Below, piece after piece: positions 4,907 through 54,389 of a stretch of DNA of 64,000 nucleotides. The position numbers and the translations under genes were made by a program. This DNA comes from Rhodothermia bacterium (lineage in GTDB: Bacteria > Bacteroidota > Rhodothermia > Rhodothermales > JAAAOL01), in the NCBI GenBank assembly GCA_030428385.1, contig JAUIDY010000019.1:1-64000 (forward strand), written 5' to 3'. The first letter of the stretch is position 1. Each line of letters starts with the position of its first letter. The notes below the pieces were generated by a model. The model worked only from the letters and a program-made list of their open reading frames with translations, had not been told where the DNA came from and ran no database searches.

Positions 4907-4934
4907 ACGTTTGATAACTATTAATCACATTTGT
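4907..4934. other. attL: half dif-like site at the left prophage end
   Basis: ACGTTTGATAA, CTATTA and then ATCACATTTGT. The first 17 bases are identical to 49098-49114. The right-hand arm (4924-4934) is phage sequence and does not match the inverted arm seen at the other end. This is the pattern expected of attL when only one recombinase-binding arm and the central region are conserved in the phage site. Confidence 0.75.
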
Positions 4935-5371: not shown

Positions 5372-6361
5372 TTATTCAGGCTTTACGAGTTTCCAAATAG
5401 CATCTTCATAGGGCTTTTTATCAAGCAGCTTGAACAACACACTTGGGTAGGTTTGTGTGAGAAAATACATGGCGGTTTCTTTCCGAGTGGGAAAGGTTTT
5501 GAATACACGCCTGCACTCAGTCTCAATCTCGCCAAACCTTTCCCACAGAACCGCCGTAGTCTCTGTTATCCATTCGTGGATTTCGTCAGGAATACCGTCA
5601 CCGATTAGCCCGTCAATATCCCCACCCGCCCGCAGGTGCTCCCACACGTACTTTTCAGACATCATCGAAATGATGCGGTGGAGCCGCACGTATTCCTCAA
5701 ACTTCACCTTGACACGAAAGCCGCTCTTGAAGCGAACCACAAACCCTTCTCGGTTGCTTTCTTCAAGTGCTTTCAAAGCGTGCAGGTCATTGAGTCCGTC
5801 GTAGTGCTTTGCAACAGGAAATCCGATTTCGGGGAGGGGCAGGATTTCTTCCCCGGTCTCAGTATTGATTACGGCAAGAAGCACGAGTTCTTCGCGCTCG
5901 CCATAGTCAACCACGATTCGATTGCTGGGGTAGATGATTTCAAACAGGTACGTATAGGCGGGGTCAAGCGAAACGCCGAGATACTTTGAGTGAAGCATCT
6001 CGTTAGCGTGCTGGGCCTGCTCGCCCGTGAAACTGCCCCGCGTTGCGATGCACGGAAATCCGCCGTGCCAGTACGTAATGCCAAGGCTACCATCAAGCTT
6101 CTCGAATACATCGAATGGCTCATTGGGGATTTCGCCGGGGGCGTGCTCTTCCAGATTGAAAAACTTTCGGAAGGGACGGGCCGCTATCGTTCCGTCATTG
6201 CGCAGGATCAGACCGCGAGATGTCAAGGTAGCATCATTCCATACGCGCTCATATTGCGCCTGCGGGGTGTAGTTGAATAGGCGAAGCTCACCTGAGGGGT
6301 GAATCACCTCGTTGATGTATCCGCCGTCAGTCATGTTTTTTAGCAATTGCCTATCAATCAT
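5372..6361 (-). CDS. T4 Rnl1-like RNA ligase
   Basis: The 329-residue protein shows the ordered nucleotidyltransferase motifs of the T4 RNA ligase 1 group: motif I KLDG (Lys88 would be adenylated), a motif III-like FEIIYPSNRIVVDY (140-153), motif IV EGFVVR (205-210) and motif V KVKFEEY (218-224). Before motif I the LTSRGLIL and RKFFNLEE segments match the family's N-terminal region. T4 RNA ligase 1 reseals tRNAs cut by host anticodon nucleases, and thermophilic phages such as Rhodothermus phage RM378 also encode one. A purine-rich AGAGGA lies upstream of the start. A tRNA-like gene is also present in this prophage, which fits a tRNA-repair role. Confidence 0.85.
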   Translation of the reverse strand: MIDRQLLKNMTDGGYINEVIHPSGELRLFNYTPQAQYERVWNDATLTSRGLILRNDGTIAARPFRKFFNLEEHAPGEIPNEPFDVFEKLDGSLGITYWHGGFPCIATRGSFTGEQAQHANEMLHSKYLGVSLDPAYTYLFEIIYPSNRIVVDYGEREELVLLAVINTETGEEILPLPEIGFPVAKHYDGLNDLHALKALEESNREGFVVRFKSGFRVKVKFEEYVRLHRIISMMSEKYVWEHLRAGGDIDGLIGDGIPDEIHEWITETTAVLWERFGEIETECRRVFKTFPTRKETAMYFLTQTYPSVLFKLLDKKPYEDAIWKLVKPE

Positions 6362-23619: not shown

Positions 23620-26600
23620 ATGAGCGTTGACACCTTCCGCAATAGCCCCCGCTACGCCGCCGACATCAAGCGGTTTTGCACAAGCCTTCGTGCGTTCATG
23701 AAGGTGATGTTTCCGCACGCCTTCACGCTGCCGGAGAGCCCCATCCATGCGGAGTTTGACAAACTCGCCACCGACACCACGCTCAAACATGGGGTGATTG
23801 AGGTGTTCCGCGAGTCGGGGAAATGCCTCGCTGCCGGAACGGAGGTATTGATGAGCGATGGTACGCGAAAGCTCATCGAGGACATCGCTGTAGGGGACTA
23901 CATCCTCAGTTACGATGTGGGGGCGGGTTGTTTTGCCACGTCAGATATGATCGTCGGAAAGGTTCATTCTGGCCCGAAGCGCTGCCTGCGCGTCACCACG
24001 GCAAGCGGCAAGCGGGTCACATTGACCCCCGAGCATAAGGTTCTGACCTTTGATGGGTGGAAGATAGCAGGCGAGTTGACCCTAAAAGACCGCATCGCAT
24101 CGCCTCGCCAAAGCGAAAGGTATATGCCCCCCTTGTCTGATTCCTCGGTAAGCGACGAAGAAGTACGCCTCCTAGCATACATGATTGCGGAGGGGAATAC
24201 CACCACGTATGCACAGAAGGATAAAGCGCGCCTCACGCAGGACGGGAACCCGCGCAAGCGCTCAACGAACTGCACCTTCACCAATACAGACTCGGTTATT
24301 CGTGAGGATTTCTGTCGGTGTGCCGAAGCGATGGGGTTCCGGGTGCGCAAAAGAAACAAGACGGCCTTTGGGCTTTCCGCTCCGCAAGGCACGCCCCGCA
24401 AAGACGGCCCCCGCACATGGGCGCGAAAGCATGGGCTTGCTGGCAAAATGGCTCCTGAAAAGCGGGTGCCGGAATGGGTTTTCCGCCTCGGGAGGCGGAA
24501 AACCTGGATGTTTCTTGCCGCGATGATTGACACCGATGGATGGGTGACGACCGCTAAGGCTGAGGTTGGTATCACGCTCGCCAGCGAGGGGCTCATTGAC
24601 GACCTCATGTACCTGTTTATGTCGGTTGGGGTTGTAACCAAAAAGCGGAAGCGCAGCAACAAGTTTGCGGGGGCGTGGGATCTGACCATCGACAAATCAT
24701 ATCTTTTTCGCGCAGCCCAGCGCCTGCCACTTCTGCTAAAAAAAGAGCGCGTGCGCGTTGCGGCAGAAAAGACCTCGCACGGACTGCTTGACACATATCC
24801 GCAGAAAATAGCACGCATGCGGACGAAAACGTGGGGGGCCTACCGCAGGGCAGGTGTTCCTATTGCGGCAAATAAAGTGCACGCCATTACCCGCCCGAAG
24901 ATGCAGGCGATGCTGGCGTTTGATCGGGTACCTGAATGGGAGCATCTTGAGCAAGCGGGCGTGTTCTGGGATCGGATTAAGAAGATAGAGGCTGTTGGCA
25001 TTCGTGACACCTACGACGTGCAGGTGCTGTGCAACAAAAACCTCGTCACGAACGGTCTCGTTACCCATAACTCGACGTTCTTTGCCATCGGGCTCCCCCT
25101 CTGGCACCGCTTCTGCGAGCCCATCGTGCGGTGGGTGCAGGCGGACGGCGACTGGCCCGCTACCTTCAACGAGGTGCAAGCCATCCTGCGGCGCACCGAG
25201 AGCGCGACGTTTACCGTGGTACGATCCAAAAGCCTTAAGGAAGCCAAACGCCGCCTCCGCGCCGTCGGGCTCATCCTCGGCTCGCCCGTCCACCGCTCGA
25301 TGAAACAGGAGGTTATCCAAGGGCGCAGGACCTTTGCGCTCTACTTCGGCGATTGGTCCACGATGTTTGAGAGCGCCACGCAGGAGGAACTACGCATGCG
25401 CGACGGGTCGGTATGGACGGCGATGGGGGCGGACCAGCAGGGACACGGCTTGCAGGAGGACTTCCTGCGCATCACGCTTGCCTTGAACGACGACCCCGAG
25501 ACGGAGAAGAATACCCGCACGCTCGCCACGATGGAAAACAACCTCGACACGTTTATGAACGGGCTCTATGCGGGGCTCGCCCCACGGGGCAGGGCCTATT
25601 CGCTGGGGACGCCGATTGTCGAAGGGTGCCAGATACGGGTGTTGCGCGACCTTGCCGCGACGATGCCCCGCTGGCAGTACCGCCACTACCCACTGCTCGT
25701 GCCGGATGCGGATGCAGGTCCGCATGGCTACCGCAGCGTGTGGCCCGAGAAGTACGGCGTAGACGAGGTGCTTGCCGAGAAAGATGCGATGGCGGCGCAG
25801 GGCAAGGTGTACCTGTGGTATCAGAAATACCAGTGCGAAATAAGGGGGCGTGAAAACCAACTCTTCACCGAGCAGGATATTATGCTCTACCGGGGTGGGC
25901 TAAAGAGGGGGCGCTCGGGCGAGTGGTTCCTTGAAATTACGCATACCGGCTCCTACGCGCACCGCGCCCAGGGAGCGCCCTTCCCCCTCGTGGTGCCCGA
26001 GACGGTGCCGGTGAACCTCTTTGCCGGGCATGACCCGGCCTCGGGGGTGGGCGGCGACGAGGCGGTGTACCTGGTCCGCGCCTACGACGCGACGGGCAAG
26101 ACGGCGTGGGACGGGCGGCACTTTGTGGTGGACTACACAGCGAGTAACACGGCGTCGGTGCCCACGCAGTGCCAGTGGGTGCTGGACGACTACGACAAAC
26201 GCCGCCCCAAGGCCACCTGCGTCGAAGGGGCGTTCTTTGACGAGTCGATGCAGACGGTGATGCAGACCGAGACCTCGGTGCGCGGGGCCTATCCCAACAT
26301 TACCAAAATCACGCCGCGCATGGGCAAGGGCAAGCGCTACATGCAGGAGGTGCAGGGAGCATTCAAAGGCCACCGCGTCTTTGTGCGCCCCGAACACACG
26401 GCGCTCATTGACGAAGCCCTCACGTTCAACATCACGCGCAAAGACAACAAGGACGACCACCTGGACGGGTTTTGGCTTTCGACCAAGGAGAACTGGCCGC
26501 CCTCACACACGCTCTCGGACCTGGGCCCCGCCCCGCCCGCCGCCACGCCCCACGAAACCTACCTCGCCTATGCCCAAGGCACCTTCGCTTCGCGCCGCAC

Positions 26601-26634
26601 GGGCGCACTCAATAACGACTGGCAAACAAGCTAA
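23620..26634 (+). CDS. Large terminase subunit interrupted by an intein
   Basis: The 1,004-residue precursor would splice to a 588-residue terminase. The N-extein ends VFRESGK and the C-extein begins STFFAIGLP, together rebuilding a Walker A motif. Later come a Walker B-like LALNDDPE, a motif III-like YSLGTPIVEG, and the RNase H-type nuclease domain with FAGHDPASGVGGDEA, CVEGAFFDES and KDDHLDG acidic residues. It packages phage DNA into the prohead using ATP. The intein must be removed for ATPase activity because it splits the P-loop between Lys68 and Ser485. Confidence 0.92.
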   Translation: MSVDTFRNSPRYAADIKRFCTSLRAFMKVMFPHAFTLPESPIHAEFDKLATDTTLKHGVIEVFRESGKCLAAGTEVLMSDGTRKLIEDIAVGDYILSYDVGAGCFATSDMIVGKVHSGPKRCLRVTTASGKRVTLTPEHKVLTFDGWKIAGELTLKDRIASPRQSERYMPPLSDSSVSDEEVRLLAYMIAEGNTTTYAQKDKARLTQDGNPRKRSTNCTFTNTDSVIREDFCRCAEAMGFRVRKRNKTAFGLSAPQGTPRKDGPRTWARKHGLAGKMAPEKRVPEWVFRLGRRKTWMFLAAMIDTDGWVTTAKAEVGITLASEGLIDDLMYLFMSVGVVTKKRKRSNKFAGAWDLTIDKSYLFRAAQRLPLLLKKERVRVAAEKTSHGLLDTYPQKIARMRTKTWGAYRRAGVPIAANKVHAITRPKMQAMLAFDRVPEWEHLEQAGVFWDRIKKIEAVGIRDTYDVQVLCNKNLVTNGLVTHNSTFFAIGLPLWHRFCEPIVRWVQADGDWPATFNEVQAILRRTESATFTVVRSKSLKEAKRRLRAVGLILGSPVHRSMKQEVIQGRRTFALYFGDWSTMFESATQEELRMRDGSVWTAMGADQQGHGLQEDFLRITLALNDDPETEKNTRTLATMENNLDTFMNGLYAGLAPRGRAYSLGTPIVEGCQIRVLRDLAATMPRWQYRHYPLLVPDADAGPHGYRSVWPEKYGVDEVLAEKDAMAAQGKVYLWYQKYQCEIRGRENQLFTEQDIMLYRGGLKRGRSGEWFLEITHTGSYAHRAQGAPFPLVVPETVPVNLFAGHDPASGVGGDEAVYLVRAYDATGKTAWDGRHFVVDYTASNTASVPTQCQWVLDDYDKRRPKATCVEGAFFDESMQTVMQTETSVRGAYPNITKITPRMGKGKRYMQEVQGAFKGHRVFVRPEHTALIDEALTFNITRKDNKDDHLDGFWLSTKENWPPSHTLSDLGPAPPAATPHETYLAYAQGTFASRRTGALNNDWQTS
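23824..25071 (+). other. Intein with LAGLIDADG endonuclease domain in terminase
   Basis: The 416-residue intein spans residues 69-484. It begins with Cys69 (CLAAGTEVLMSDGTR, block A), has block B TPEH (136-139), two LAGLIDADG-type motifs (LLAYMIAEGN at 184-193 and LAAMIDTDGW at 299-308), block F-like DTYDVQVLCNKN, and ends HN (483-484) before a Ser +1 residue. All residues needed for standard Cys-type splicing are present. The endonuclease motifs keep Glu191 and Asp305/Asp307-type acids, so homing may be active. Insertion in the most conserved P-loop is typical of inteins. Confidence 0.95.
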
Positions 26635-27499: not shown

Positions 27500-29956
27500 A
27501 TGGCACTGGTTCAATCCTTCGACCTAGACACCGGGAAACGCCGGGAAGGCGAGGGGCATGGTGCGTCCGGTGCGTACGGCGCGGATGGACAGCCCGAAGC
27601 GCTCAAAAAAGCCGCCCGCCTCACCGAAGACCTCTTTGCCGAATATGCCCGGCAGCAGAGCGTATGGGCCGAGCAGGGAATCAAGAACGAGGAGATGCGG
27701 CAGAACGTCGTGTTTACGCTTGCGCAGTCCTCAACCATTCAGGCGCGGGGCCTTGCGCCCGTTGCCATCCCCCTGTGGCACCAGATTGAAGAACAGGCGG
27801 TGGCGATGCTCTGCGCCCGCACCCCGCGCTTTCAGGCCGTCGGAGTGGAAGCCTCCGACGCGACGGTGGCGGCGCTCTATAGCGACGTGATGACCCACAT
27901 CTGGCGGCGCTCGTCGGGTGATGGGCTCCTGCGGCGGCTCGTCAAAGACGAGGCAACCCCCGGACGGGGCGTGTTCTACGTCTACGCCGACTTCGCCGCC
28001 GACGGGGGCGCGGGCGAAATCATGCTCGACGTGCTGGACCCGCTTGAAGTGTTTCCTGACCCCGCCTCGCGCAAGAAAGATTGGTCTGACGCCGCCCACA
28101 TCCTCGTGGTGCGCGAGATGACCCGCGAGCAGCTTGAGACGGCCTACCCCGAAAAGAAAGACCTCATCGCCTCGCTCAAGATGTCCTCGGGCGCGGGCGG
28201 GGCCTACGGATATGCGGGCACCTCCTACGGCGCTCGCAGCCGGGGCGAGGGGCAGGTGGTGGGCTACGGACAGCAAGGCATAAGCCGCGCCGGAGACACC
28301 TACGTCATCGCCGAGCGCTACAGCCGCGTCCGCGTCCGCCACATCGAAGCCACCGAACCCGACCCTGCCTCCGCAAGGGGTACGCGCACGCGCCTTCTGC
28401 CCAACGACGAAAATCACACCGTCATCGGACCCGCGCCCTACGCCGCCTACCTTCAGGAACCCGCCTACGAAATCCGCTACGCTTTGCCGGGGGGAACCCC
28501 TGGCCGTTCTATATGGGCGGTCAGTGACAGCGAAGTGGCGTTCTACGAAGACCTCCAGATGCAGTACGGCGACATTCGCTCGGCAGCCGGGACGATGGTG
28601 GAGATTGCGGCGGGCCAGATGCAATTGATTAGCGGGGTGGAGGTGCCTGCGCTGTCCGTGATTGCCACACTCTACCGCCGCACCAAGGCCGCCGCCATCG
28701 GCGCAGGGGTGATTCGCGCACGCACACGCACCGAGAAGCGCGTGCAGGTGACGTGCTCGGCCGGCCTCGCGGCGCTACATCAGTACGTGCTCCCCACGGC
28801 GACCTATCCGCTCTGCCCGTACCACACGCAGCACGAGCGCAACCCCTACCCGACCTCGGTAGCGACGAAGTGCCGCCCGATGATTGAGCTTTACAACAAG
28901 AAGCAGCAGGGCATCATCGCCAACCTGACCGGCGCGATGGGGCAGACGTGGTGGGCCAAGGCCGGAACGCTGGAGGTGAACGGTGGCAAGGAAGCCGTGG
29001 CGCAGCAAATCGCCAACCCCACCCCCAAGATTCTTGAATACACGGGCGATGCGCCGCCGATGCAGGCGCAGTACGTGCCCCTGGCGGCGCAGTTCTTCCA
29101 GAACCAGGACCGCCTCAAGGCGCAGCTTTTTGAAACGACGGGTTTTTACCCGGTCATGCAGGGCGACCAAAGCCAGCGCCCCGAGCGCGAGACGTGGAAA
29201 GGGACGCTGCACTACGACGAGACGGCGCAGCGCCGCACGCGGCAGCAGCAAAACGACCTCTACGACACGCTGAACCTTGCCGGGACGGTGGTGGCAGACC
29301 TCATCCCCTACGTCTACCGTCGCCCGAAGGTGCTACGCCTCTTTGACGCGGACAAGCAGGCCGAAGTCGCCAAAGAAATCAACCGCCCCCTCTACAACTC
29401 CTACGGCGAGGTAGTGGGGCTCATCGATGACGTGACCACCGCCCGCTACGACCTTTACGTGCAATCGGGCTCGACCCTGCCCGAGAATCGCACCGCCCGC
29501 TACATGGCGCAGCTTGAACTACTCCAGGTGCTTGCGCCGTTCGGCCCGGCAGCGGCAGGCATCGTGCTCCCCGAAATCCTCCGCAACGCCGAAATCCCGC
29601 ATTGGGAAGACCGCCTCGCGGACTACTACACACAGGCCGACCTCGCCGCCCAACTCCAGGCCGCGCAGGAGCGCATCAAAGCGCTTGAGGGCGACCAGCA
29701 AACCGCCGACCGCGAACTGCGCAACATGGACCGCAAGGTGGAGCGCGAAAAGGCCAAGGCGCAGATTTCCTCGACGGTGGCCCGCATGGACGAGGGCGTG
29801 AAGAAAGAAGCCGAACTGACCAAGCAGCGCATGGCAGACACCACGGGCGAAGTGGCGCAGCTACAGGCGCTTATTGACCAGATCGGACAGATGCAACCCC
29901 AGGGGCAACCCCAAGGACAACCCCAAGGGCAACCCCAAGGACAAGTAACAACCTAA
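27500..29956 (+). CDS. Portal protein
   Basis: The 818-residue protein follows terminase and precedes scaffold and capsid. Its size and order match the large portals of P22/SU10-type podoviruses. Segments typical of this group include an N-terminal helical region, HQIEEQAVAMLCARTPRFQA, LVKDEATPGRGVFYVYADF, LDVLDPLEVFPDPASR, and a long C-terminal helical barrel (RIKALEGDQQTADRELRNMD). It ends with four QPQG repeats encoded by 12-bp tandem DNA. It forms the dodecameric DNA channel of the head. Confidence 0.8.
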   Translation: MALVQSFDLDTGKRREGEGHGASGAYGADGQPEALKKAARLTEDLFAEYARQQSVWAEQGIKNEEMRQNVVFTLAQSSTIQARGLAPVAIPLWHQIEEQAVAMLCARTPRFQAVGVEASDATVAALYSDVMTHIWRRSSGDGLLRRLVKDEATPGRGVFYVYADFAADGGAGEIMLDVLDPLEVFPDPASRKKDWSDAAHILVVREMTREQLETAYPEKKDLIASLKMSSGAGGAYGYAGTSYGARSRGEGQVVGYGQQGISRAGDTYVIAERYSRVRVRHIEATEPDPASARGTRTRLLPNDENHTVIGPAPYAAYLQEPAYEIRYALPGGTPGRSIWAVSDSEVAFYEDLQMQYGDIRSAAGTMVEIAAGQMQLISGVEVPALSVIATLYRRTKAAAIGAGVIRARTRTEKRVQVTCSAGLAALHQYVLPTATYPLCPYHTQHERNPYPTSVATKCRPMIELYNKKQQGIIANLTGAMGQTWWAKAGTLEVNGGKEAVAQQIANPTPKILEYTGDAPPMQAQYVPLAAQFFQNQDRLKAQLFETTGFYPVMQGDQSQRPERETWKGTLHYDETAQRRTRQQQNDLYDTLNLAGTVVADLIPYVYRRPKVLRLFDADKQAEVAKEINRPLYNSYGEVVGLIDDVTTARYDLYVQSGSTLPENRTARYMAQLELLQVLAPFGPAAAGIVLPEILRNAEIPHWEDRLADYYTQADLAAQLQAAQERIKALEGDQQTADRELRNMDRKVEREKAKAQISSTVARMDEGVKKEAELTKQRMADTTGEVAQLQALIDQIGQMQPQGQPQGQPQGQPQGQVTT
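29889..29950 (+). repeat. 12-bp tandem repeat encoding QPQG at the portal C-terminus
   Basis: Units of CAACCCCAAGG(A/G) or close variants repeat about four times immediately before the stop codon. Confidence 0.8.
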
Positions 29957-29964
29957 AGACGACG

Positions 29965-31335
29965 ATGGCACTATCAAGCGAACACACACCGGCACCGTCC
30001 ATAGGTGGAGCGTCCACCGGACAAGCCGGAGACCATAGCCTCTCAGACGGCAACCCGTGGGGAAACCCCACAGGTAATCCTACGGGGAATCCTGCGGGAA
30101 CCGCTGGGAGTGCGCCCCCCACAACCACCCCCCTTTCGTCACAGGCGGACAGTCAAGCGACAGTCCCAGCGGAGACTCAGAGACCGCAGGGGCGACCCGA
30201 AGGCGACCCCGACCCGGCAGCATGGAAGGCGGATGTACACGGTGGTGTATGGGGCGGCAAGCCCGCAACCGGCGCGGAGCAGGAACGTCCTGCCGCCGCA
30301 CAGGCAACGGTTGCGGGAGAGGGAGCGGTGCAAGGACAACCCTACGCAGCCCCTCAAGACGCAGCACCCCCAAGCGGGCAACCGAACGGAACCACCGAAG
30401 GCGAGCCCAACGGAACCCGCGAGGGCGAGCCCGAAGGCAACCCTGACGGCAACCCGAACGGAACCGGTAGTGCCCCCGATGGGCAAGGCGAGCCCAGTAT
30501 GCAATACTGGATGAGCCAGGCGCACAGCGCACAGGCCAAGCTCAAGAAACTTGAGCAACTAGAGCCGCTTGCCCGCCACATCGACAACCCGCACGTCCTT
30601 GCCGCGCTCGAAGCAGCGGTGCAAGGACAACCCTACGCAGCCCCGAACGGACAACCCTACGCCCCGAACGGGGTACCGAATCGGATACCGAATGGCAATG
30701 CGACCCCCGGCGACCCTGCACAGCAGCAGTCGGGACAGTACGGCCAAGCACCGGGATATGACATGGAGACGTTGCGTGCGGAGTTTGGCGAGAAAGGAGC
30801 GTCTGTTGTGGCGGCTATCCTCCAGCAAAACCAGGCCCTAGAGGCGCAGGTGCGCCAGTTTGGGGCCTTTGCCCAGGAGCAGCGACAGCAGGCCGAGCGG
30901 CAGCAGCAAGCCGCCCGCGCCCGCATGGAGCTTGCTGCCGAACTCAAGGAGGCCGGTGGCTCGGAAGCGATGGTGGAGGCCGCCCTGCGCGACCTGCGCG
31001 ACCCGCAGATGAGCCGCGTCATCCGCCGCTACGGATGGGGTGGATGGGTTCATGCGCGGAAGCAGGCCCACACGCCCCCAAACGGGATACCAAACGGGAA
31101 TCCAAGCGGGATACCGAACGGCAACCCGAACGGAACTCCAAGCGGGAATCCGAACCCCGCCCGGCAGGCCCCTGCAGCGTCTACCCAACACCGCCTGAAC
31201 GAACCTCCACCCGGCAGCGCACACTACGTGCCTCCGGTGGCGGCGCAGTCTGCCCGGCAGACCTCCCGCGCCGACACCGATGAGATGGGCATTTTCTCGA
31301 TGCCCACGCGCCCAAACGGGCTACAGGCCCGGTAG
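29965..31335 (+). CDS. Scaffolding-like head protein with tetrapeptide repeats
   Basis: The 456-residue, low-complexity, Gly/Pro/Gln/Asn-rich protein has a coiled-coil core (AQAKLKKLEQLEPLARHI and ALEAQVRQFGAFAQEQRQQAE) and a basic C-terminal segment. Such composition and its position between portal and capsid genes fit a scaffolding protein. It contains three blocks of xGNP/xGTP-type tetrapeptide repeats (around residues 28-45, 132-160 and 370-395) and a duplicated AVQGQPYAAP segment. It lacks hydrophobic segments. Confidence 0.6.
   Translation: MALSSEHTPAPSIGGASTGQAGDHSLSDGNPWGNPTGNPTGNPAGTAGSAPPTTTPLSSQADSQATVPAETQRPQGRPEGDPDPAAWKADVHGGVWGGKPATGAEQERPAAAQATVAGEGAVQGQPYAAPQDAAPPSGQPNGTTEGEPNGTREGEPEGNPDGNPNGTGSAPDGQGEPSMQYWMSQAHSAQAKLKKLEQLEPLARHIDNPHVLAALEAAVQGQPYAAPNGQPYAPNGVPNRIPNGNATPGDPAQQQSGQYGQAPGYDMETLRAEFGEKGASVVAAILQQNQALEAQVRQFGAFAQEQRQQAERQQQAARARMELAAELKEAGGSEAMVEAALRDLRDPQMSRVIRRYGWGGWVHARKQAHTPPNGIPNGNPSGIPNGNPNGTPSGNPNPARQAPAASTQHRLNEPPPGSAHYVPPVAAQSARQTSRADTDEMGIFSMPTRPNGLQAR
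30049..30112 (+). repeat. 12-bp repeats encoding GNP(W/T/A) near the scaffold N-terminus
   Basis: Units of GGNAAYCCN plus one codon repeat four to five times and give GNPWGNPTGNPTGNPAG. Confidence 0.75.
31072..31163 (+). repeat. 12-bp repeats encoding NGIP/NGNP/SGNP
   Basis: About seven 12-bp units near the scaffold C-terminus encode NGIPNGNPSGIPNGNPNGTP and similar. Confidence 0.8.
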
Positions 31336-31369: not shown

Positions 31370-32740
31370 ATGGCAACTTATACGCTCGGAACGAGCGGCG
31401 AACAGTTTAACCACCGCCGCGACTTCTACCCCCGCCCAAATAACATGGCGGAGCTTTATCCGTCAAGCACCCCCTTTCTCTCGCGCCTCTACCAGATGGG
31501 GCCGATTGACATTTCTGGACTCCCCGACCCCACGTACTCCATGTTTGAGTACGAAGCCGGGTGGCGATACCAGTATTTCAGCGTCAACGGCAGTCCGTCG
31601 GCGTGGTCCAACTCGGGCAACCCCGCCCACGCCTCCTACACCGATGTCACCATTGACGTAGACGGCATCACGGGCCTGCCCTCCTCGGTGGACTCGTCGT
31701 GGGTTGGCCTCCAGGTGTGGATCTACAACGAGGACCAGACGACCCTTAAGGGCGTCGCCCGCGTGCATTCGATTACCGACTCGGACACGCTCACGCTGCG
31801 CGGTATTGGTAATCCCACCGTCGCGGCGCAGACGATGACCGCCCTTGCCGACAACGACCACCTCCGCGTGGTTGCCACGGCGTACGGCGAGTCCTCGGAA
31901 AGCCCGGAGGCGAACAGCGAGGAACTGACCTCGGTGCGCAACTCCTGCCAGATTTCGCGCCTGAGCTACCAGGTCTCCACCATCGCCATGAAGGCGAACA
32001 TGCGGGGCAACCCGAACGAACTGCTCCGGCAGCGCAAGAACAAGACGAACGAGTTTAAACTGCACGAGAGCAAGAAAATGCTCTACGGCTACCGCCTGAA
32101 CGGTATTGGTGGCACGGCCTACGGCGCGAGTAGCAATGCGGATGCCACGACCGGCGACAGTCATATTGCCGACAGCGACTCCGATACCGTGCGGACCACG
32201 ATGGGGCTGTTCTCGGCGATGCTGCGCTACGGCATCTCGGACGACACAAACTCGCAGCAGAACGTCTTCTCCCGCGTCTCGGCAAGCTACACCTACGACG
32301 ACTTTGTGGACGACTCGGAAAAGATTTTCCAGTATTCCACCGATGGCGGCGTAAAGGTGGCCTACTGCGGCCCGACGGCGCTGAGTTTCTGGTCGAAGGT
32401 CGGGGCCGATGGGCTCAAAACCTCGGGCGGCAAGCGCGAGACGGTGATGCTCACCAACCCCGAAACCGACCGCTCCCTGGGGCTCAAGTTCCGCGAGTTG
32501 CACACGCCCCACGGCGTCGTTCAACTGGTGCGCGACGACGTGCTGCGCGGGACGCCGGAGACGGGCTGGATGTACATTATTGACGAAGGCAACATCGGCT
32601 TGGTGCAGTACGAGGCCGACATGTTCCGCCAGAACATCAAGACCGACAACGCCCCGAACTACCAGAAGGACGAGCTTTACGCCAACAACGGCCTCAAGCT
32701 CTGTCTGATCAAGAGCCACGCGCTCATCAAGTTCGCCTAA
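31370..32740 (+). CDS. Major capsid protein, SU10/DUF5309-like
   Basis: The 456-residue protein shows features of the SU10-type major head protein: an N-terminal NNMAELYPSSTPFLSRLYQMG, a central NSCQISRLSYQVSTIAMKAN followed by NELLRQRKNKTNEFKLHESKKMLYG, and a C-terminal MYIIDEGNIGLV region. Its position after the scaffold gene and its length support the role. It should adopt the HK97 fold and build the icosahedral shell. Codon use is strongly GC-biased, as expected for a highly expressed gene of this phage. Confidence 0.8.
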   Translation: MATYTLGTSGEQFNHRRDFYPRPNNMAELYPSSTPFLSRLYQMGPIDISGLPDPTYSMFEYEAGWRYQYFSVNGSPSAWSNSGNPAHASYTDVTIDVDGITGLPSSVDSSWVGLQVWIYNEDQTTLKGVARVHSITDSDTLTLRGIGNPTVAAQTMTALADNDHLRVVATAYGESSESPEANSEELTSVRNSCQISRLSYQVSTIAMKANMRGNPNELLRQRKNKTNEFKLHESKKMLYGYRLNGIGGTAYGASSNADATTGDSHIADSDSDTVRTTMGLFSAMLRYGISDDTNSQQNVFSRVSASYTYDDFVDDSEKIFQYSTDGGVKVAYCGPTALSFWSKVGADGLKTSGGKRETVMLTNPETDRSLGLKFRELHTPHGVVQLVRDDVLRGTPETGWMYIIDEGNIGLVQYEADMFRQNIKTDNAPNYQKDELYANNGLKLCLIKSHALIKFA

Positions 32741-49138: not shown

Positions 49139-50089
49139 ATGTATATGCCTCAGTCGCTAGTTCATGCAGATTCTCGCGTCCTTCAAGAAGCGCAAGTTAA
49201 CTTCGGCTCACTGATCGATCTCTATCTAAAAAAATTCGACCGTGTGCAAACGATGCGTGCGTATCGGTCCGACTTGATTGATTTTTTTACGACTGATGAT
49301 GTCACGCTCGACATAGTTCGGCAAGTGTCCTTTGTCCATGTCAATCAATATATCGCCTCATTACAAAACGATGGATATAAGGCGTCGACATTGAAACGCC
49401 GTGTGGCTGCCCTCCGGGGGTTCTTCGATTGGCTCGTCGCCCTCGGCGTTCTTGAGCAGAATCCTGCACATCGGCAGCTCATTCGCCGAATTCGAGGATC
49501 AAGTCAGAAAGATCGCGGGGTTTTGTTTCTATCGGCCGAGCAAGCTGAGCGCCTTCTCGATGCCTCTCAAAATGCTGGAAAAGCATCGGTACGAAATTAT
49601 TCCCTCTTGAAAGTCTTGCTGTATTGTGTATTGAGAAGGTCTGAAGCCGCGTCAATGGACGTAAATCATATTCGTCCGCTTGGTCACTATTGGGTCCTGG
49701 ATTTGCCCTCAACAAAAGGTGGAGCCGATCAATATGTGAAGATTCCTGCGCACGTAGTCGAGCAAATTGAAGTCATGAAAGCCCACTACGGATTCTCGGA
49801 TGGCCCGCTTTGGCGTTCCCTTAGTAATAACAGAAAAAACCAACGGCTTTCGCCTCACTCCATTTATCGCATCGTTAAACAAGCTGCCATAGCTGCCGGA
49901 CTCGATAACGAAATTGGAGCACATACCCTGAGGCATACAGGTTGTACCCTGGCGCTGGAAGCAGGCGCAACGTTACAACAGGTTCAGACCCACGCGCGGC
50001 ATAAGAACATCGAGACAACCATGATATATATCCACCAGCGCGACAAATTACGTGATAGCGCAGCTGACTTTATTCATTTAAAAGGATAA
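49139..50089 (+). CDS. Xer-like tyrosine recombinase
   Basis: The 316-residue protein has an N-terminal SAM-like core-binding domain and a complete tyrosine-recombinase catalytic set: Arg166 (LLYCVLRRSEA), Lys193 (STKGG), His262/Arg265 (AHTLRHTG), His288 (THARHKN) and Tyr297 (TTMIYIH). Length and layout match XerC/XerD/XerH-type proteins rather than lambda-type integrases, which carry an arm-binding domain. Its AT-richer base composition resembles the host genes. It lies outside the 17-bp repeat and directly beside the dif-like site. It may be a host single-recombinase system or the phage integrase; see findings. Confidence 0.88.
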   Translation: MYMPQSLVHADSRVLQEAQVNFGSLIDLYLKKFDRVQTMRAYRSDLIDFFTTDDVTLDIVRQVSFVHVNQYIASLQNDGYKASTLKRRVAALRGFFDWLVALGVLEQNPAHRQLIRRIRGSSQKDRGVLFLSAEQAERLLDASQNAGKASVRNYSLLKVLLYCVLRRSEAASMDVNHIRPLGHYWVLDLPSTKGGADQYVKIPAHVVEQIEVMKAHYGFSDGPLWRSLSNNRKNQRLSPHSIYRIVKQAAIAAGLDNEIGAHTLRHTGCTLALEAGATLQQVQTHARHKNIETTMIYIHQRDKLRDSAADFIHLKG

Positions 50090-52151: not shown

Positions 52152-54182
52152 TCAACTTGTTCCCTCTGAAGCTTGTACCGGAGTGAACGAATAAGGAGGA
52201 AAAGGGCCAGAAATATTGAACGAAAAGCCCCGTGAACGAAAACGTTCGCGTAAGTTCATCATTTGGGCCATAAAATCTCCTTCATCAGATCGACGCACCA
52301 AATACGTGGCACTCATGACTAGGTCGCCAAGTTCATCGTCTTTCTCTTCTTGAACCTCATCAAGCTTGCTATCTTCCGCGTATTCGAGAAACGACTCGTG
52401 GCTTACCTTGACGCAGTTTTGAGTAGCAGACTCAACCTCCTCATGAATTGCAACAACCATTTGTTTTTTAATGAAATGAGCCACCCCACGAGGTTTACTT
52501 TTAATGTCATTCATTAACTCCTGCACCTTCGTGCTATCTTCCATAACCCGCCGGCGAAGTTGCTCCACATCACTAAAGATTTTCATCCCCCATTCTTGAC
52601 TGCCTTGCAGTTGGCTGAGGGTATCTTTAAACGCCTCCTGGTGCCCATCGAGCATATTTTTTAGCTCATTCTCTGTCTCGAACACCGTCCCGAAACGCAT
52701 CGGGATTAGGGTAGCATGTTGCATGGCCTGCTCCAGTACCTTTTCATGCGCAGGAGCATATTGTTCAACCCATTGGTCATCTTCAATGTGTTCGCGCACC
52801 ATTTCCTTGCTAAACTCAGGAAGCGGTACCCGACTCACCAAGGCTTGAATTGTGCCATGCTGATAAGTAAAGACCTGGTGATCCGCATAAATACTTTGTT
52901 GCGGGAGTACATCATCGTTCATGATTGAGTCATCGGGCATGACCCCATACACATAGTACCCAAACTCCGGTGCCTTAACAGCAGCCTGAAAGTCTTCCCA
53001 GATAATGGTCCGCGTCTCGTCCGTATCGATCAGAATTGTTGCGTCGTCCTCCGGAGCCTCCATGAGTTCGTTCTCTACGGGCTCTTCGACAATTAAATCA
53101 GGTGATTCTGTTGAAGCGCTCGCCAAGGAGTCCCCTTGGGTTTCCGATGCCGTTGCGCTGTCATCGGGTAAAGCCAACCACGCATCCTCTTCCGGTAACT
53201 CTTCGGTCTCGATATCCCCGAAATAGGCAACCTCTTCTTCCCCTGCACTTTCTGAAAAGTCATCGTCGAAAGACAAGGCACTGTCGAGCGCTTCAAGATC
53301 TGAAAACGCCTCTTCGGCCTCGCCATCAATCTCAAGCTGTGCCGTTTCCAAAAAATCTCCTTCGAAGAGCAGCTCTTCGTGCTCAGAAAGATCGCGGATA
53401 AACGTTTCGGCATCCTCGAAACCGGCAGCACTGACACCAGAGGTTTCGACGGCTTCTTCCTCCAGAGCGGCAGCCGCTGCAACCACCCCGGCTGTTTCCT
53501 CTTCGGGCTGATCAATAAAGGCGGTGCCGAGGGCTTCCTGAGCGGCTTGCTCCATGGCTTCTGCTTCATCCGTCACGTGCTCTTCAGGAGACGCCTCATC
53601 TGCCATCACTTGAGGCTGCGCCAATGAATGGTCGGCCTCCTCTTCTGCATCCTCTAGGCCGGAGGTCTCTTCATCAGAGGAGACCTCCTCACTGAAAAAA
53701 GGGTCAGAGGAAGCTTCCTCCCCCAGCTCCTCATCCGCTGGATTTTGTTCGTTCCATTCCCAATCGGGTTCGCTTTCCTCCAAGATGTCGTCATCCATCA
53801 TCTCTTCGAAGACATCAACGACCTCTTCATCAAGGGCATCAAGACCATCGAGGTCATCCAGTGCCTCCTCATCCAAGTCGGCAAGGAGATCATCAGTCGG
53901 TGCTTCACCTACTTCATCTCCGATCTCTTCGATGGCTTCGGACATGATCTTATTTAGCAAGCGCGACTTGAGGGCTTCCTTTGCTTGTTGCAGCACCTCG
54001 GCGTCCTCCCCAAGCGCTTCCATCGCTTCTGATGCCGTGGCCTCCGGATCACTCAATTCATCCATCACCTGCTGAATCATGGTCTGGATGAGCTTCCTTT
54101 TCAGGTTTTTTTTAGCCTTGGTCAGTGATTCACTGCGCCCAAGAAGTTGGCCTAATCCTTTGGGATCTGGGGTTGTTTCCAT
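52152..54182 (-). CDS. GvpF/L-domain protein with a 400-residue acidic N-terminal region
   Basis: The 676-residue protein has a C-terminal GvpF/GvpL gas-vesicle domain (about 408-676): FGYYVYGVMPDD, AHEKVLEQAMQHATLIPMRFGTVF, and SFNISGPFPPYSF. Before it is a helical start (residues 1-100) and about 300 residues dominated by Glu, Asp, Ser and Ala with no globular motif. Normal GvpF/L proteins are near 250 residues. No gvpA, gvpN or other gas-vesicle gene lies in the window. Its own terminator follows. ATG 54182 is preferred to the frame's first ATG at 54293. Confidence 0.75.
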   Translation of the reverse strand: METTPDPKGLGQLLGRSESLTKAKKNLKRKLIQTMIQQVMDELSDPEATASEAMEALGEDAEVLQQAKEALKSRLLNKIMSEAIEEIGDEVGEAPTDDLLADLDEEALDDLDGLDALDEEVVDVFEEMMDDDILEESEPDWEWNEQNPADEELGEEASSDPFFSEEVSSDEETSGLEDAEEEADHSLAQPQVMADEASPEEHVTDEAEAMEQAAQEALGTAFIDQPEEETAGVVAAAAALEEEAVETSGVSAAGFEDAETFIRDLSEHEELLFEGDFLETAQLEIDGEAEEAFSDLEALDSALSFDDDFSESAGEEEVAYFGDIETEELPEEDAWLALPDDSATASETQGDSLASASTESPDLIVEEPVENELMEAPEDDATILIDTDETRTIIWEDFQAAVKAPEFGYYVYGVMPDDSIMNDDVLPQQSIYADHQVFTYQHGTIQALVSRVPLPEFSKEMVREHIEDDQWVEQYAPAHEKVLEQAMQHATLIPMRFGTVFETENELKNMLDGHQEAFKDTLSQLQGSQEWGMKIFSDVEQLRRRVMEDSTKVQELMNDIKSKPRGVAHFIKKQMVVAIHEEVESATQNCVKVSHESFLEYAEDSKLDEVQEEKDDELGDLVMSATYLVRRSDEGDFMAQMMNLRERFRSRGFSFNISGPFPPYSFTPVQASEGTS

Positions 54183-54389
54183 AATACGTTCGCTTGCCCT
54201 TTGGTTATGCTGAATTTCCCCGGTACAAAAATCAACATTGGTATCGGGTAGTTTAGGCAATTCCTTTAACGCACGCAAACAAACAATTTGCACGCTTCAG
54301 GGTATGGAGCCCCCTCAAGGGCTTCTCTCTCGATGGTGCTAAAAACAGATGCAGAACGCCCTCTCTACCTTCGCCCAAACCACTTCGAT

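Follow-up and report, generated by a model that had tools for sequence, protein, structure and literature searches.

An intein splits the P-loop of the terminase large subunit encoded by a prophage of a Rhodothermia bacterium. We are highly confident that it is a canonical class 1 intein with a LAGLIDADG homing endonuclease, and infer splicing, endonuclease activity and homing. The most fitting view is of a selfish mobile gene retained where imprecise loss would kill packaging. The window analyzed here comprises bases 1–64000 of a 64,642-base contig, from a genome of 6.19 Mb in a 245-contig assembly.

The terminase precursor is encoded in a single open frame, of which the intein takes up residues 69–484 (Table 1). 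The junctions read EVFRESGK↓CLAAGTEVL upstream and GLVTHN↓STFFAIGL downstream (arrows mark splice junctions), and the insertion point lies between Lys68 and Ser69 of the terminase P-loop (FRESGK↓ST). Once the intein is removed the exteins total 588 residues (computed), and the spliced protein would read VFRESGK↓STFFAIGL across the joined flanks. The textbook Walker A motif has Gly or Ala where the loop found here, VFRESGKS, has Val; relatives show the same [F/P]R...K[S/T] form. An earlier note on this DNA had described a 416-residue intein with all splicing residues and two LAGLIDADG motifs, lying exactly between Lys and Ser of the P-loop. Its extent proved exact to the residue and in frame, all splicing residues are present, both motifs were found in the intein, and the junctions are exact, with Lys followed directly by Ser or Thr in uninterrupted relatives.

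Table 1 Features of the terminase gene, its intein and the surrounding prophage. Positions are those of the window; A1, A2, and A5 are alignments; residues of blocks and motifs are in intein numbering.
Feature	Position	Strand	Basis
Likely prophage extent, ~44 kb	4907–49114	.	17-bp direct repeat at both ends
Terminase large subunit precursor ORF, 1004 aa	23620–26634	+	ORF and profile match
N-extein, 68 aa, ends ...EVFRESGK, first part of P-loop	23620–23823	+	Junction and alignments
Class 1 intein with nested LAGLIDADG endonuclease domain, 416 aa	23824–25071	+	Profiles, alignment, model
Cys1, N-terminal nucleophile, block A	23824–23826	+	Cys in 35/35 relatives (A5)
Block B TPEH (TxxH), residues 68–71	24025–24036	+	Thr68 34/35 (one S), His71 35/35
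LAGLIDADG motif 1 LLAYMIAEG, predicted helix 111–123	24169–24195	+	Position 123 acidic 35/35 (29 E, 6 D)
LAGLIDADG motif 2 FLAAMIDTDG, predicted helix 224–238	24511–24540	+	Asp238 in 35/35
Block F DTYDVQV	25006–25026	+	D398 in 33/35
Block G GLVTHN, penultimate His415 and terminal Asn416	25054–25071	+	His and Asn 35/35
C-extein, 520 aa plus stop: Ser+1 (P-loop Ser), rest of ATPase, nuclease domain	25072–26634	+	
Walker B acids D208–D209 (spliced numbering)	25489–25494	+	Invariant in A1, A2; position computed from numbering
Portal protein (P22-type), packaging-module context	27500–29956	+	P22_portal 1.5e-38
Major capsid protein (SU10-type)	31370–32740	+	SU10_MCP 3.1e-19

Profiles, conservation, and a structure model support the reading of a complete class 1 intein with a LAGLIDADG homing endonuclease domain (DOD type) whose acidic residues are kept. 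Pfam Intein_splicing (4.4e-14) and LAGLIDADG_3 (1.4e-8) match the precursor, as does NCBIfam intein_Nterm above its cut-off (1.2e-6); Pfam Hint and Hom_end_hint match below theirs. Sequence matches of the intein in the PDB include DnaB inteins, RecA inteins, and PI-SceI. The C-terminal signature of class 1 is present (THN↓S, Ser at +1). Conservation was scored in A5, which holds the window intein and 35 relatives (36 rows chosen from those available); Lys213 is kept in 34 of these relatives, and the two LAGLIDADG acids, E123 and D238, lie one in each of the two predicted helices. From knowledge of class 1 inteins and PI-SceI, we take the conserved residues to be catalytic. The AlphaFold model built with the 35 relatives (pLDDT 87.8, pTM 0.89; pLDDT 32 for the intein sequence alone) shows the Hint fold, judged against PDB inteins, and its best structure matches there are two crystallized inteins with endonucleases, TliVMA (1.4e-18) and PI-PfuI (7.0e-16). 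In the viral structure library, nine of the 50 matches listed are named terminases, P1201 among them. As for the age of the insertion, GC3 was considered as a sign of recent arrival and dropped: the intein value (0.654; own exteins 0.794 and 0.831) falls within the spread of the other listed prophage genes (0.594–0.845; the integrase, outside the repeat, has 0.470 and is not counted).

Two explanations would make the element less than it appears. An assembly artefact or an unrelated in-frame insertion is hardly conceivable: the locus is indeed known from a single contig of the 245, but the intein ends fit the conserved loop exactly, the intein fold is complete, and the frame is kept on both sides. 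A relic, that is, a splicing-dead or endonuclease-dead intein in a defective prophage, is unlikely; the occurrence of the prophage on one contig and the long branch of the intein in the tree would suit it, whereas the 1004-residue open frame, the full set of splicing residues, both endonuclease acids and Lys213, together with the Walker B and nuclease acids of the terminase, argue for an intact element. Even with its motifs intact, the endonuclease may have lost activity.

The identity of the extein rests on PHROG 38 (terminase large subunit), which the C-extein matches at 1.8e-27; in the Pfam search of the precursor no terminase model reached 0.01, and NCBIfam termin_lrg_T7 matched at 5.5e-5, below the model cut-off. 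The viral terminase scan used alignment A1; the best 80 of its 222 relatives were retained. Every one of the 80 (75 distinct sequences) has a hydroxyl residue immediately after the Lys, Ser in 61 and Thr in 19, and the loop is uninterrupted; the count is partly biased toward intact loops, because one of the two scan patterns is the P-loop itself, so that interrupted loops may be under-counted. The earlier note had proposed a search for intein-free terminases with the same P-loop, and viral contigs indeed hold uninterrupted relatives with the loops GFRESGKTT and AFRESGKST. Alignment A1 shows no variation at K68, D208, D209, and D530 (nuclease domain), nor does A2 at D389, at a terminase identity to A1 and A2 relatives of only 20–26%. 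Because the Walker B pair D208–D209 and the nuclease acids (D530, D389) are invariant, the extein looks like a working terminase.

Close relatives of either part were sought more widely. Single-protein scans of IMG/VR with the C-extein and with the intein returned no close relative, nor did the intein scan of the genome collection. The C-extein matched one of 99 relatives' genomes, namely the window's own; the spliced terminase matched two of 50,697 phage records, weakly, and none of the solved structures. No intein-free allele of the terminase close enough to define a homing site was found in IMG/VR, the 99 genomes or the 50,697 phage records. The nearest identities are 31% for the intein and 25% for the terminase.

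The terminase lies in a likely prophage of ~44 kb. The left window end is bacterial (Na/Pi cotransporter, LacI-type regulator), as is the right (MacB-like, GvpL/F, 7TM-HD, sodium symporter, DNA ligase); GC drops from ~0.60 to ~0.45 near 49 kb; and the genome's only two copies of a 17-bp direct repeat stand at 4907 and 49098. Together these features led us to draw the prophage between the two repeat copies. The portal and capsid proteins had no match among phage records. A tyrosine-type integrase gene (49139–50089; PHROG 1, 2.3e-48) with a host-like GC of 0.482 begins 25 bases beyond the right repeat copy; the prophage may use, or may have landed beside, an integrase lying outside its own repeats. 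Other genes of the window are recorded here in their own right. Near the left prophage end a T4-type RNA ligase is encoded on the minus strand (5372–6361; PHROG 562, 4.7e-67; Pfam RNA_lig_T4_1), and the 64-kb window that carries it holds no tRNA genes. Between the portal and capsid genes, 29965–31335 on the plus strand encodes a predicted 456-residue protein rich in NGxPNGNP-like repeats and without a match in PHROG. On the host side, 52152–54293 on the minus strand encodes a 713-residue protein whose final 260 residues match the GvpL/GvpF gas vesicle protein, with ~440 residues ahead of them.

In the proposed mechanism, the gene would be translated as a 1004-residue precursor, Cys1 would begin the acyl shift, Ser+1, which is the P-loop Ser, would take the branch, and Asn416 would cyclize and free the intein, giving a 588-residue terminase with the loop VFRESGKST restored. 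The unspliced precursor should be without packaging activity, because ATPase activity would be lost while the P-loop is split. Given the placement of the intein, the P-loop is whole only once splicing has occurred; that packaging would depend on splicing is a sound inference. Excerpts of PMC6195587 describe both elements in other proteins: the P-loop intein of Pyrococcus horikoshii RadA disrupts ATPase function, and in Mycobacterium smegmatis DnaBi1 the P-loop Ser doubles as splicing nucleophile. The proposed homing step is cleavage of intein-free terminase alleles by the endonuclease domain, with repair then copying the intein in; homing into the terminases of other phages, as the earlier note suggested, is plausible.

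The earlier note had further suggested that splicing acts as a timing or condition-sensitive switch. That idea found no support here: no sequence feature marks the intein as conditional, and its six extra cysteines all lack conservation. That redox, metal or temperature should slow or stop splicing and so time late packaging is very unlikely, even though other P-loop inteins are conditional; according to excerpts of PMC6195587, H2O2 blocks M. smegmatis DnaBi1 by disulfide bonding of the catalytic Cys to Cys48, a residue situated between blocks A and B, the stretch in which the window intein has Cys54 (besides five other extra cysteines). Against this parallel, Cys54 is Cys in just 2/35 relatives of A5, DnaBi1 is a class 3 intein and the window intein class 1, and in the spliced protein the closest extein cysteines, residues 20 and 83, both lie away from the junction; moreover, five TerL inteins assayed elsewhere spliced readily, with precursor readily visible for one only (excerpts of PMC5050341). 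Of the other extra cysteines, Cys166 is shared by 3/35 and Cys150 by 0/35 relatives, and at the remaining three positions Cys is not among the commonest residues listed. A redox switch read from cysteine positions was accordingly rejected for want of conservation. The preferred reading remains that of a mobile intein whose splicing would restore the terminase.

Relatives of the intein were gathered from several collections. The whole precursor matched 40 GenBank phage records at 1e-5, none of them at an identity of at least 60%; in a sample of the phylum, 25 of 394 genomes (own included) match the intein, at best with 31% identity. Inteins are common around the host, since the Pfam intein model is matched in 54 of 244 genomes of the class, own included; the own genome shows one intein only, that of the terminase. 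A wider genome scan with alignment A4, whose patterns lie inside the intein and so do not select for insertion site, gave 117 relatives, of which the best 80 were kept. From these and five viral loci, 60 rows could be aligned end to end, and in most of them the intein interrupts GK↓S in an archaeal ATPase whose loop reads GKRG.GK↓SY; two viral rows have QTGK↓S and KRGK↓T sites. Pfam searches of five of these intein-bearing proteins gave HerA DUF87 for one (4.5e-6, L176), no extein family for two archaeal proteins (L166, L177), and weak matches for two viral ones (terminase, 0.0039; DnaB, 0.001). The archaeal inteins at GKRGGGK↓SYT are the best-scoring full-length relatives (25–28% identity) and share the Lys↓Ser P-loop site with the window intein; their extein is not a terminase, being HerA/DUF87-like by one weak match, whereas that of the window is. 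Among the best 80 of 117, DPANN-type archaeal genomes (L164–L243) very often encode a HerA-like ATPase whose GKRG.GK↓SY loop is split by an intein. One archaeal protein of 1329 residues (L177:2746–6732) has two Intein_splicing stretches and perhaps carries two inteins.

These sites raise the possibility, which we regard as doubtful, that the window intein belongs to a class 1 lineage whose endonuclease tracks P-loop coding sequence (GGN AAR↓TCN or ACN) and that has jumped between non-homologous P-loop ATPases: archaeal HerA-like proteins, phage terminases, and DnaB-like helicases. In its favor, in a scan unbiased for site most full-length relatives with a readable junction interrupt a GK[S] loop between Lys and Ser, and P-loop versus other labels need two changes only on a tree of 39 inteins, in agreement with a 20-row tree drawn from the 39. 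On 12 representatives, one row per extein clade and chosen after seeing the tree, 30 of 792 relabellings need as few changes (~0.04). The tree holds 39 of the 48 inteins gathered, with archaeal rows thinned to every third; nine of at most 340 residues were dropped, namely six DnaB P-loop inteins (252–272 aa; labelled P-loop), which are thus absent from the counts of label changes, and three SIEQ-site inteins (labelled other). Against such a lineage, the window intein is a long branch with no supported neighbor, and grouping it with the HerA set (AU p 0.101), with Rhodothermales DnaE inteins (0.105) or with P1201 (0.083) is in no case rejected and in no case shown. Among the papers found on inteins with HerA and P-loop, or on DPANN and homing endonuclease, titles and abstract openings announce no such lineage. 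If true, the lineage would allow the open question of the inteins' preference for P-loops to be approached directly, and endonuclease target choice, not selective retention alone, would lie behind the preference.

Terminase P-loop inteins are already well known in phages, and the window intein adds one more. Mycobacteriophages carry 50 TerL1 inteins in the list of Kelley et al. 2016 (PMC5050341), excerpts of which locate the TerL1-a insertion between an invariant Lys and the Thr after it and call it a classic P-loop insertion. Of the seven TerL intein types, five were assayed there, TerL1-a not being one of these, and all five spliced; both TerL inteins tested for cleavage cut the intein-free gene of a partner phage. 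TerL1-a resembles the window intein in lying in a terminase large subunit at a P-loop Lys↓hydroxyl site, and differs in having Thr, a terminase_1 family extein, and actinobacterial phage hosts, as against Ser, a PHROG 38 terminase, and a probable Rhodothermales prophage. GenBank phages with terminase inteins at or near the P-loop include P1201, KLEB27-3, CcrRogue, Bajun, and Cp1R7A-A1. The intein of Corynebacterium phage P1201 (PKGSAK↓CLDPET ... THN↓TEL) shares a class 1-type Cys1, an HN↓T end, and a Lys↓Thr P-loop site; it has 358 residues, lies in a different terminase, and shows 24.5% identity over the matched part. Those of Caulobacter phage CcrRogue, Brevundimonas phage Bajun, and Mesorhizobium phage Cp1R7A-A1 use the window's Lys↓Ser site (PPGHAK ... 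HN↓STY) and, lacking the Cys directly after the P-loop Lys (PLDVDTEV, PLHVDTPV, and DMCVTTPV; the window has Cys1), are probably of a splicing class other than class 1. In the 485-kb uncultured phage LR745208.1, two intein-like ends stand in different frames (FITHN↓SSFA and FINHN↓TLEV), possibly from several inteins close together. M. smegmatis DnaBi1 likewise uses a P-loop Ser as nucleophile, but is a class 3 mini-intein, lacks an endonuclease, and lies in a bacterial helicase (excerpts of PMC6195587). With the window intein, this known pattern extends to another phage lineage, new to it, and probably to a new host order, and an intact intein-endonuclease pair is now at hand for testing.
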